64,000 nucleotides of DNA, from assembly GCA_019239915.1 (NCBI GenBank), contig JAFAZF010000036.1:62001-126000 (forward strand). The letters are read 5' to 3'. Each line of letters opens with the position of its first letter. Within the stretch, counting starts at the first letter, position 1. Below the pieces are notes generated by a model. The model saw only the letters and a program-made list of their open reading frames with translations. It made no database searches and had not been told where the DNA came from. Below are positions 36,856-41,111 of the stretch, in pieces. Source of the DNA: Sphingomonadaceae bacterium (GTDB lineage: Bacteria > Pseudomonadota > Alphaproteobacteria > Sphingomonadales > Sphingomonadaceae). Both the position numbers and the translations under genes were made by a program.

Positions 36856-36990
36856 CTGTCGCGCGAGGCTCCTGATCAGGGCCGACGCGCGGCGGGATGG
36901 GACGACGCGGTGCACTCGCGTCGCGATCGTCCGGACGGCCGGCGCGCCAGGGCTTTCGGGGTCGAAAACCCTGACGCAACGATCATCAAC
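36856..36990 (+). ncRNA. Candidate structured RNA or leader of unknown family
   Basis: Three consecutive hairpins after the promoter (36852-36896, 36900-36932, 36948-36973); no convincing ORF; 3' end unknown. Confidence 0.4.
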
Positions 36991-37281
36991 CAGGCCAGCG
37001 CCAGGCTGTCATGCTCGTGCTCTATGTGCATGGCCCGCGGCGTCCGCCACAACGAGCCAGTTCCCGCCGCCGGCCCGACGCGCCCGCGGAAATGGGCGAG
37101 GTGCTCCCGCCGGAAAACTGGGACACCGGCAAAGCCCCGATCGCCGCGAGGCACGCGAGGGGCGCCGGCCGTTTCTCGCGCTCTGTGCCGAGCTACGGGA
37201 TCGGTGCGCGCGCATTTCCAACAGGCCGCCACGACGGGCGCGAGATAGCGAGCGCTTTCCGATCGGCTCGCCGCCAGCCGT

Positions 37282-37350
37282 GCTCCTGCGAAAGCAGGAG
37301 CCAGCAGCGATGCGCTCGAACGCCCGGGGTTCCTGCTTTCGCAGGAACAC
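37282..37350. repeat. Two-arm palindromic repeat (GCTCCTGCGAAAGCAGGAGC / TTCCTGCTTTCGCAGGAA)
   Basis: Two short hairpins in inverted arrangement, intergenic. Confidence 0.7.
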
Positions 37351-37485
37351 GGATGCGCCATTCGAAACCGTGCGCTCCGGCGCAGGGGCACCCCGAAGGC
37401 CGGAGCACTGGGGCCTCAAGTGCACCGCCCGCCGTCCGCGCTCGGCCTTCGCCGGAGCACAGGTTCGACAACCGCCGCGCAAGCC

Positions 37486-38586
37486 TCACCGCGCCGGCGG
37501 CATCTCCGCGCCGCGCGTGCCCGCCGCCACCCATTCGCGCCACAGCATCACCAGCACCGCCATCACCGCCGGGCCGACGAACAGGCCGAGCAGGCCGAAC
37601 GTCTCGACGCCGCCGAGGATGCCGAGCAGCACCCACAGGAAGGGAAGTCGCGTCGCGCCGCCGATCAGCACCGGGCGCACGACATGATCGGCGACGAACA
37701 CCACCGCGAAGCCGAACGCCACCACCGCGATCGCCGCCACCACCTGCTGCTGGGTGATGAGCAGCAGGCCCGCGATGCAGTACATCGCCGCCGCGCCGAA
37801 CGGGATCATCGCCGCGATCGCCGTCGCCGCCCCGAGCAGCAGCGGGTGGGTCACGCCGGAGAAGACGTAGGCGACGGCCATCAGCAGCCCTTCGGCGAGA
37901 CCGACCAGCACCAGCCCGTCGATCGTGCCGCGGACCGACTGGACGACGTGGTTGGCGATGCGGTCGCCCGAGGCGCCGATCAGCCGCCGCGCCGCCAGCC
38001 GGATCTGCGCCGCGATGAACGCACCGTCGCGGAGCAGGAAGAACAGCGCGAACAGCGTGAAGCCAAAGGTGATGCTGCGCTTGATGATGCCCGAGCCGAC
38101 CATCCGGCTGTGGTAGAGGATGGTCTGCGCGCTCAGCACGCGGAACTGCTCGTCCGCCGCCTCGGGCGTCGCGAGGTGCTGCTGCCACCAGGCGGAGACC
38201 GTCTTGGCGCCGAACGGCAGGTGCGCCACCCACTCGGGGACGGGCACGCCCTGATGCCGCGCCGCGATCAGCCAGCGCGCGACGTCCTGCGCCTCCGCCG
38301 CTGCGCGCACGATCCCGAAGCCGACCGGCACGAGTACGAGCAGCGCGACCGCCGCGGTGAGCAGAAACGGAAGGACCCAGCCGCGCGAGAGGCTCGGCCA
38401 GCGCCGGATGACGCGATGGCGCAGCGGCGAGATCGCGATCGCGATCACGCCGGCCCAGAGCAGCGCGGGCAGGAAGTTGCGGATCGTCCACAGCCCCAGC
38501 CCGAGGACGATGAACACGAACACCAGCCGCGCGATGCGCTGGTGCGCGGAGAGCTCGCCCGGCTGCGGCGGCAGCGGCGCGCTCAT
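37486..38586 (-). CDS. AI-2E family transporter
   Basis: Multiple TM; FFLLRDGAFIAAQIRLAARRLIG; VRGTIDGLVLVGLAEGLLMAVAYVFSGVTHPLLLGAATAIAAMIPFGAA. Confidence 0.88.
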   Translation of the reverse strand: MSAPLPPQPGELSAHQRIARLVFVFIVLGLGLWTIRNFLPALLWAGVIAIAISPLRHRVIRRWPSLSRGWVLPFLLTAAVALLVLVPVGFGIVRAAAEAQDVARWLIAARHQGVPVPEWVAHLPFGAKTVSAWWQQHLATPEAADEQFRVLSAQTILYHSRMVGSGIIKRSITFGFTLFALFFLLRDGAFIAAQIRLAARRLIGASGDRIANHVVQSVRGTIDGLVLVGLAEGLLMAVAYVFSGVTHPLLLGAATAIAAMIPFGAAAMYCIAGLLLITQQQVVAAIAVVAFGFAVVFVADHVVRPVLIGGATRLPFLWVLLGILGGVETFGLLGLFVGPAVMAVLVMLWREWVAAGTRGAEMPPAR

Positions 38587-41111
38587 CGCCGCCCGCCCCG
38601 CGAACCACCCTTGTGGCGGATGTTGGCGGGCCGGCCGCGGCGCCCCATCGGCCGGCGCTCACGCGAGACCGGCCGATCGCGCGGCCGCGGCTCGGCATCG
38701 GGCAGCTCGAAGCGCAGCGACGCCGAGATCGGGCTCGCTTCGACCAGCCGCAGCTTGAGCCGCTGGCCGGGCACGAAGGCGGTGCCGCTCTCCTCGCCGA
38801 CGAGCGACTGCGCGCGCTCGTCATAATGGAAGCGTTCGGCGCCGAGCGTCGAGACCGGCACGAGGCCGTCCCCGCCGAGCCCCTCGACGGTCGCGAAGAA
38901 GCCGAACGACTGCACGCCGGTGATCCGCGTATCGACGAGCTCGCCGACTCGCTCGGAGAGGTAGGCGGCGACATAGCGGTCGATCGTCTCGCGTTCGGCC
39001 TCCATCGCGCGGCGCTCGGCGCGGCTGATGCCCTCGCCGATCCGCTCCATCTGCTCGGCCTCGGACGACGGCAGCTTGGTCTCCGCCGGCAGCGATCCCA
39101 GCGCCGCCTTCGCCACCGGCGCCTCGAGCCCGTAGGCGCCGACCAGCGCGCGGTGGACGAGCAGATCGGCATAGCGCCGGATCGGCGAGGTGAAATGCGC
39201 ATAGCTGCCGAGCGCGAGCCCGAAATGGCCCGCATTGGCCGGCGCGTAATAGGCCTGGGTCTGGCTGCGGAGGATCTGCTCCATCACCTGCGGACGATAA
39301 TCCGCCTCGCCCAGCCTTGCTATGAGATGGTTGAAGGTCGCCGGCCGGACCACCTGCCCAAGCGCGAATTCGATCCCGAACGTCTTGAGATAGTCCTTGA
39401 GTGCGACGAGCTTCTCGCGGCTCGGCGGCTCGTGGACGCGGTACATCACCGGCGCCTTCCTCGCTTCGAGCGCCTTGGCGGCGGCGACGTTCGCCGCGAT
39501 CATATAATCCTCGATCAGCCGGTGCGCATCCAGCCGCTCGCGCGGCGCGACCGAGAGGATGCGGCCCTTCTCGTCGAGCATCACGCGGCGCTCGGGCAGG
39601 TCGAGCTCCAGCGGCGCGCGCTTTTCCCGCGCCCTCGCCAGCGCCCGCCAGCACGCCCACAGCGGCCGCAGCGCATCCAATAGCCCCTCCCCTTCAGGGG
39701 AGGGGTTGGGGTGGGGTGGATGCTGGGCGAGCGCTCGATCGCTGTCCACCCACCCCAACCCCTCCCTTCCAGGGAGGGGCTCAGTGGGCTCCAACTCCGG
39801 CATCGAACAGGGCGAGGAGGCAAGTTCTATCTCCCCTCCCGCTTGCGGGAGGGGTCGGGGGTGGGCGCCCGGCTCATGGCCAGGCTCCGCGCTCGAAAGC
39901 GCGAGCCCACCCCCCGGCCCGCTCCCGCTCGCGGGAGGGGAAGCGGCCCCGTCGATCATCGCCTGCGCGTCCTCATAGGCGATGTTGGCGGCGACGCGGA
40001 TCACCGCGCGGGCGAAGCGCCAGCTCTTCAGCGCGCCGTCCTTGCCGATCGTGAGGTGGCAGACCAGCGCGCCGCGGTCTTCGCCGGCTCTCAGCGAGCA
40101 GACGTCCGCCGAGAGGATCTCGGGCAGCATCGGCACGGCGCGATCGGGGAAATAGACGCTGTTGCCGCGCTTCCTCGCCTCGCGATCGAGCGCGCCGCCG
40201 GGCCGCACGTAGAAGCTGACGTCGGCGATCGCGACGATCGCCTTGAAGCCGCCGACATTGGCGGGATCGTCGTCGGGCGCGGCCCACACCGCATCGTCAT
40301 GATCGCGCGCGTCGGCCGGGTCGATCGCGACGATGGGGAGATCGCGGAGATCCTCGCGCGCGCCCTCCCCTATGGCTCCCAGCGGCAGCTTCGCCGCCTT
40401 CACCGCTTCCTCCAGTACCGGCTCGCCGAAGACATCGGGAATGCCGAACTTGTGGATCGCGACGAGGCTGAAGCTGCGCGGCGCGAATGGATCGCCGAGC
40501 CGTTCCGAAACCTTCGCCGAAATGCGTGGTGGCCGCCCAACCTTCTCCGCCAGCACGAGATCGCCGACGTCCGCCTCGCCCGCATCGGAGACCGGCAGCT
40601 CGCGCCGCTCGCGCTTGTCGACCGGCTTGAGCCACAGCCGGTCTCCCTCCTTGTGGAGCACGCCCAGCACCATCTCCTCGCTCTTGGCGAGCTTCTTCAT
40701 CGGATGCGCGACGAGGCCGCGCTCGGTCTCCTCGGTGCGCGCGAGGATGCGATCGCCCGGGCCGAGCGCGGAGGATTTCGGGCCGCGCCGCTCCATCACG
40801 CGCAGCCGCGGCGGCGGCCCCTCGCCCTGCCAGTTCTCCGGAACGGCGGTGGTGCGATCGCCATCGGCGTCGATCACGCGCAGCACCGTCACGCGCGGCA
40901 CCCCGCCCGATTTGTGGAAGGCGCGACCGGGGGCGCTGTCGATCAGCCCCTCGTCGGCCATGTCCTTGAGCAGCGCCTTCAGCAGGATCTTGTCGTGCGC
41001 GGAAAGCTGGAAGGCGCGCGCGATCTCGCGCTTGCCCGCGGGCTGGGTGCTCTCCTCGATGAAGCGGAGGATCTGCTCGCGGCTCGGAAGGCCCTGGCTG
41101 GGATTGCGCAT
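38583..41111 (-). CDS. rnr: Ribonuclease R carrying an 86-codon repeat-derived insertion in the RNB domain
   Basis: RDLPIVAIDPADARDHDDAVWA RNB motif; HFTSPIRRYADLLVHRAL; C-terminal S1 and basic tail. Confidence 0.95.
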   Translation of the reverse strand: MRNPSQGLPSREQILRFIEESTQPAGKREIARAFQLSAHDKILLKALLKDMADEGLIDSAPGRAFHKSGGVPRVTVLRVIDADGDRTTAVPENWQGEGPPPRLRVMERRGPKSSALGPGDRILARTEETERGLVAHPMKKLAKSEEMVLGVLHKEGDRLWLKPVDKRERRELPVSDAGEADVGDLVLAEKVGRPPRISAKVSERLGDPFAPRSFSLVAIHKFGIPDVFGEPVLEEAVKAAKLPLGAIGEGAREDLRDLPIVAIDPADARDHDDAVWAAPDDDPANVGGFKAIVAIADVSFYVRPGGALDREARKRGNSVYFPDRAVPMLPEILSADVCSLRAGEDRGALVCHLTIGKDGALKSWRFARAVIRVAANIAYEDAQAMIDGAASPPASGSGPGGGLALSSAEPGHEPGAHPRPLPQAGGEIELASSPCSMPELEPTEPLPGREGLGWVDSDRALAQHPPHPNPSPEGEGLLDALRPLWACWRALARAREKRAPLELDLPERRVMLDEKGRILSVAPRERLDAHRLIEDYMIAANVAAAKALEARKAPVMYRVHEPPSREKLVALKDYLKTFGIEFALGQVVRPATFNHLIARLGEADYRPQVMEQILRSQTQAYYAPANAGHFGLALGSYAHFTSPIRRYADLLVHRALVGAYGLEAPVAKAALGSLPAETKLPSSEAEQMERIGEGISRAERRAMEAERETIDRYVAAYLSERVGELVDTRITGVQSFGFFATVEGLGGDGLVPVSTLGAERFHYDERAQSLVGEESGTAFVPGQRLKLRLVEASPISASLRFELPDAEPRPRDRPVSRERRPMGRRGRPANIRHKGGSRGGRR
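39683..39780. repeat. Family B palindromic repeat inside rnr
   Basis: GCCCCTCCCCTTCAGGGGAGGGGTTGGGGTGGGGTGGATGC ... CCACCCACCCCAACCCCTCCCTTCCAGGGAGGGGC. Confidence 0.92.
39831..39940. repeat. Family B-variant palindromic repeat inside rnr
   Basis: CTCCCCTCCCGCTTGCGGGAGGGGTCGGGGGTGGGC ... GCCCACCCCCCGGCCCGCTCCCGCTCGCGGGAGGGG. Confidence 0.9.

Follow-up and report, generated by a model that had tools for sequence, protein, structure and literature searches.

In-frame palindromic repeats in an inter-helix loop of RNase R in Sphingomonadaceae

Two palindromic repeats, denoted here families A and B, lie within one loop of the ribonuclease R (RNase R) encoded in a 64,000-nucleotide stretch of DNA from a Sphingomonadaceae bacterium, probably a member of the genus Sphingomonas (contig JAFAZF010000036.1, positions 62,001 to 126,000; the whole stretch is called the window below). 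At the corresponding loop of relatives at least five palindrome families are found, in frame and stop-free. We consider it quite probable that dispersed palindromes landed separately in this disordered loop, that copies preserving the reading frame survived while broken ones were purged, and that the insert has no evident role in the protein. In-frame palindromes as such are already known, from the Rickettsia palindromic elements (RPEs) and from the repetitive extragenic palindromes (REPs) in uvrA, including that of sphingomonads; what is new here is the recurrent capture of one loop by several families in many lineages, together with near-identical empty sites.

The rnr gene and its two palindromes

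The rnr gene occupies positions 38583..41111 of the window on the minus strand and is an uninterrupted open reading frame (ORF) of 842 aa, with the RNB domain, the catalytic aspartates and the FTSPIRRY motif. It matches TIGR02063, the RNase R family, at 1.3e-169 and the Pfam RNB domain at 2.3e-89, the latter match spanning the insert. The remainder of the ORF is complete, as a sequence-only reading of this DNA had suggested. With 566, the TIGR02063 score falls short of the curated cut-off of 598, the insert dividing the match into two parts, and the assignment to RNase R is based on the presence of the RNB catalytic motifs and of an RNase R fold. The catalytic aspartates 264, 270, 272 and 273, assigned through the conserved RNB motif, are invariant across 46 sequences, as is FTSPIRRY. 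The gene is single-copy, being the only RNB-type match at 1e-60 in the 3.6-Mb genome, which is a draft in 85 contigs. For G010, a genome assigned to the same genus, the rnr sequence entered into the tree is identical to that of S. oligoaromativorans.

Both palindromes were found at the coordinates given by the sequence-only reading. The family B element (110 bp, 39831..39940, minus strand) is the upstream one in the protein, covering approximately residues 391-427, and its inverted repeat is 78% complementary; the family A element (98 bp, 39683..39780, minus strand) covers approximately residues 444-477 and is 84% complementary. Folded as RNA, the family A element (98 nt) reached -75.4 kcal/mol (z -7.0) and the family B element (110 nt) -95.0 kcal/mol (z -8.1), and since no shuffled sequence folded as well in either case, both folds are far beyond chance. 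Counting both strands, family A gave 63 matches, which correspond to about 40 places in the genome, whereas family B is present at four places, the other copies being at C61:30945, C81:207774 and C42:51803; it also occurs in the rnr gene of locus L066.

The two elements are separated by 50 bp (39781..39830, minus strand, approximately residues 427-444) with the sequence IELASSPCSMPELEPTEP, which had initially been counted as part of the insert. The spacer is native, because relatives that are free of elements contain the same segment: a conserved SSPCSMPELEP stretch is present in the loop, without elements, in L041, L072, L073 and L078, the loop of L073 reading VGEQVVEVASSPCSMPDLEGPVPKELVDKAL and that of L078 LGEEPIEIASSPCSMPPLDPS. 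In L048 and L077 a different element stands upstream of the same native segment. It follows that rnr of the window holds two separate insertions, one on either side of the native segment, and that the inserted DNA amounts to about 208 bp in two pieces. On translation these would add about 70 disordered residues to the protein.

Elements and spacer together make 258 bp, exactly 86 codons in phase, so that the earlier statement of a preserved frame holds. Since neither 98 nor 110 is divisible by three, small changes in the flanks must have kept the frame. The residues immediately after MIDG read AASPPASG, and not PPASG as had been proposed for the flank of the insert.

An assembly error around the repeats is barely conceivable. 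The genome is a draft in many contigs, and palindromes are hard to assemble; against this, the reading frame runs on through both elements and through the spacer, and an element is present in the rnr loop in many independent assemblies, including the complete chromosome L082.

Structure of the loop

The AlphaFold2 model, computed with 46 sequences, showed a confident core with a mean pLDDT of 82, and the closest solved structure was that of Escherichia coli RNase R (5xgu). Residues 397-471 had pLDDT values below 50 and are located between two helices. The first (residues 379-390; 39942..39977, minus strand) carries the motif YEDAQAMID with the conserved residues Y379, A382 and Q383; the second (residues 474-498; 39618..39692, minus strand), LLDALRPLWACWRALARAR, contains the conserved residues L481, L484 and W485, its first residues being encoded by the end of the family A element. 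The very low confidence of the model in this region suggests a disordered loop attached to a core that is predicted to be intact. The site had been described as lying inside the catalytic region; it is indeed within the RNB domain, but in an inter-helix loop and not at the catalytic centre.

Occupation of the loop in relatives

The alignment with rnr of relatives, as proposed with the sequence-only reading, revealed empty sites and allowed the native segment to be recognized. The palindromes found at the loop include families A and B, family C, whose stems are of the CCCCTCCC type, family D (CGTTCGTCCTGAGCGAAGTCGAAGGACG) and family E, a dimer of CCCCAGCGAAAGCTGGGG with a CGTC tag; in addition there are a D-like variant and several palindromes of single occurrence. 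Families A to E are each multicopy in genomes that bear them, family D with 65-74 matches per genome, family C with 5-42 and family E with 10-20 matches. No stop codon was found in any loop, and in a frame-blind comparison of about 110 rnr loci the frame was shifted in only two, neither of which carries an element. In L115 (S. echinoides) and L012 the frame differs between the halves of rnr and no palindrome is present, which points to a sequencing error or a pseudogene. Two further genes showed peculiarities elsewhere: L048 (Allosphingosinicella vermicomposti) carries an additional palindrome (VRPEPVEG...ASTSSARTG) in a different loop of RNase R, close to residue 247 of the window protein, and in L109 (Sphingomonas sp. 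ERG5) the RNase R match is longer than that of relatives by about 1.2 kb, although its loop at the present site is short.

The best 80 matches of the protein search lean to long loops, and frequencies were therefore determined in 139 genomes sampled evenly across the family. A clear element was present in 10 of these (G000, G125, G161, G067, G156, G150, G032, G114, G063 and G116), and an uncertain one in G160. Loop length ranged from 4 to 99 aa and was mostly 13-20 aa; an unrelated native loop of equal length in all relatives, which had been named as the case that would speak against an insertion, is thus not what the family shows. Outside the family no element was seen in the order-level genomes, where the gap that separates the two parts of the rnr match does not exceed about 45 nt. 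A different palindrome was found at the same place of rnr on a distant alphaproteobacterial contig (L099).

As to the direction of change, the occupied locus L091 (Sphingomonas sp. NFR04) can be compared with the empty loci L105 and L108, whose proteins are nearly identical to it. The comparison suggests an insertion, which would have replaced about 8 nt of the loop and lengthened it by 99 nt net. It makes it extremely improbable that such loops are ancient native sequence, GC-rich and self-complementary by chance, as does the repetition of the elements elsewhere in the genome; the wide variation of loop length across the family is the one observation that would fit an ancient loop.

A FastTree phylogeny of 107 RNase R sequences, calculated with the loop left out, implied no fewer than 39 changes in the type of element and at least 24 in its mere presence, although this is a quick method and many forks of the tree are weak. 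Sister pairs with support of at least 97 that bear different families (L066 with B and L087 with D; L051 with B and L064 with C; L058 with C and L096 with A; L067 with A and L075 with E) are firmer evidence for independent events than the counts of changes. Horizontal exchange of rnr segments could be the source of some changes of element type.

Family D is read in two frames, as clustering of the DNA showed, giving PFVLSEVEG (VLSEVEG) in one and SSRAKSRD in the other; hence it is the DNA that recurs, and the peptide is incidental. This bears on the proposal that the insert is selected at the level of the protein, as a disordered segment that is of use to it, such as a binding site or a degradation tag. 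The repeated gain of Pro/Gly-rich sequence would agree with it, and the conserved native SSPCSMPELEP suggests that the loop has a function in some lineages, but the peptides differ between families, and within family D with the frame, and close relatives are empty, which renders selection for the peptide very unlikely.

Folding as RNA was computed for 81 distinct loops with 26 aa or more; 46 of them reached z values between -3.5 and -12 and were judged by inspection to be element-bearing. Native loops of the SSPCSMPE type were mostly between -3 and +1.5, the native-looking L043 reaching -4.0, and in some occupied loops (L021 and L118) the fold was hardly stronger than that of native loops. Structured RNA is degraded by RNase R, and a regulatory role of the palindromes at the level of the mRNA is therefore attractive: a hairpin in the coding region could slow translation or steer the decay of rnr, possibly as autoregulation. 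The great stability of the two RNA folds of the window and the repeated capture of the same place in rnr speak for such a role. We nevertheless regard it as very unlikely, for the same elements are also found in uvrA, mfd and metH, the loop is short in most relatives and hence dispensable, the families and their positions vary, and the weakly folding occupied loops just mentioned do not fit. It is tempting to speculate further that capture was adaptive, the hairpin making the rnr message a target of its own RNase R and lineages rebuilding this device again and again, but this must be rated as very improbable.

In-frame copies in other genes

About 43 sites of families A and B were examined in the genome. 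Five of them fall within four conserved genes, two in rnr and one each in mfd, uvrA and metH, and all five are in frame; at nearly all the remaining sites no ORF spanning the element is credible as coding sequence, as judged from ORFs, codon score and Pfam matches rather than from annotation. Family A is inserted in frame in Mfd (L129, G000 C73:57388-57485), where it is read as SSPLPERQGLGVG...SLAGRGAGS, and a family A-like palindrome, KPLPFRGGVGVEQPHLPISSPEGEEEV, in the activation domain of MetH (L278, approximately 1200-1280, G000 C42:49741). Family B is in frame in UvrA (L002, G000 C61:30945-31054). In other Sphingomonas the same UvrA loop, compared in L282-L296, holds other palindromes, some of them D-like, in G001, G004, G006, G007, G008 and G015, the site of G001 giving a family D match; in G002 and G010 it is short. 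Further copies of family A are covered by long ORFs (L131, L126 and L274), and antisense ORFs are present in L129 and L002, but none of these matched a Pfam family, and they were rejected as spurious. In the window itself, repeat-like translated stretches at 36876-37482 (CSCESRNP, AFAGARLA) look like a further, intergenic palindrome family.

Mobility and relation to known elements

Target-site duplication was sought at 31 copies, and the mean longest word shared by the flanks was 3.26, compared with 3.33 for shuffled pairs (P 0.72). The two genes of RAYT-type transposases found in the genome (Y1_Tnp, 148 aa; L139 and L140) are flanked by the palindrome AACCCCTCCGACTTCAGTCGGA, which is unlike families A and B; as the flanking palindrome differs at both genes, these RAYTs were ruled out as mobilizers of A and B. 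The absence of target-site duplication above chance and the different flanks of the RAYT genes count against calling transposition of families A and B established. The window gave no match in Rfam. No CGTC tag was found at the ends of families A and B, nor does family C have one; family E, found at the same rnr site in relatives, fits the CGTC-tagged REPs (CGTC-ACCCCAGCGAAAGCTGGGG).

RPEs and the Wolbachia palindromic elements are about 100 bp long, lie in frame in conserved protein genes, where they are presumed to be tolerated, and occur outside genes as well; the RPEs were reportedly described by Ogata, Claverie and co-workers. The palindromes of the window resemble them in size (98 and 110 bp), in being multicopy (about 40 and 4 places), in their in-frame position within conserved protein genes, the sites being empty in some relatives, and in having extragenic copies. 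RPEs differ in belonging to other bacteria with another base composition, whereas here several families re-enter one loop, and the likeness is one of behaviour and not of compared sequence, so that the window elements were not classified as RPEs. Like miniature inverted-repeat elements (MITEs) and BIMEs, they are short, non-autonomous inverted repeats, multicopy and mostly intergenic, with the paired hairpins of BIMEs; they differ in the lack of a detected target-site duplication or a matching transposase.

Di Nocera, De Gregorio and Rocco (2013, PMC3733652) described, according to the main text of their paper, in-frame dimers of GTAG/CGTC-tagged REPs in repair and RNA-processing genes including uvrA, among others in Sphingopyxis alaskensis and Erythrobacter litoralis; in recB of two Xanthomonas species different REPs stand at about the same site, and most REPs are intergenic. 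The main text mentions neither RNase R nor Mfd, and our literature search on palindromes in RNase R or in sphingomonads gave nothing beyond this paper. From those REPs the present elements differ in that families A, B and C lack the CGTC tag, which E has, and in that a single site is occupied in many lineages, by at least five families, near-identical genes being empty there. The suggestion of an independent analogue of the RPEs is borne out as regards the in-frame repeats and the empty sites, but the case is not an isolated one, considering the repeated entry of unrelated families into the loop, the copies in other genes and the REPs of 2013 (PMC3733652).

Proposed origin and implications

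The elements may be described as non-coding repeats of REP/BIME or MITE type, about 100 bp long, with a small hairpin at either end. Copies of families A and B would have arrived separately, on both sides of the native segment, and would have been kept because the net change in length preserves the frame, the GC-rich elements are free of stops there and the inter-helix loop tolerates extra residues. Different lineages would have gained different families at the rnr loop independently, frame-breaking copies being removed by purifying selection. The insert is probably neutral; the rnr and uvrA sites are, however, occupied so often that tolerance alone may be insufficient.

One loop of one enzyme with many entries and with empty sites represents a replicated natural experiment. 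It bears on how repeats move without a visible transposase or target-site duplication, and on whether in-frame palindromes make useful protein segments or are just tolerated. It also means that in sphingomonads residues annotated as part of RNase R, UvrA, Mfd or MetH can be translated repeats.
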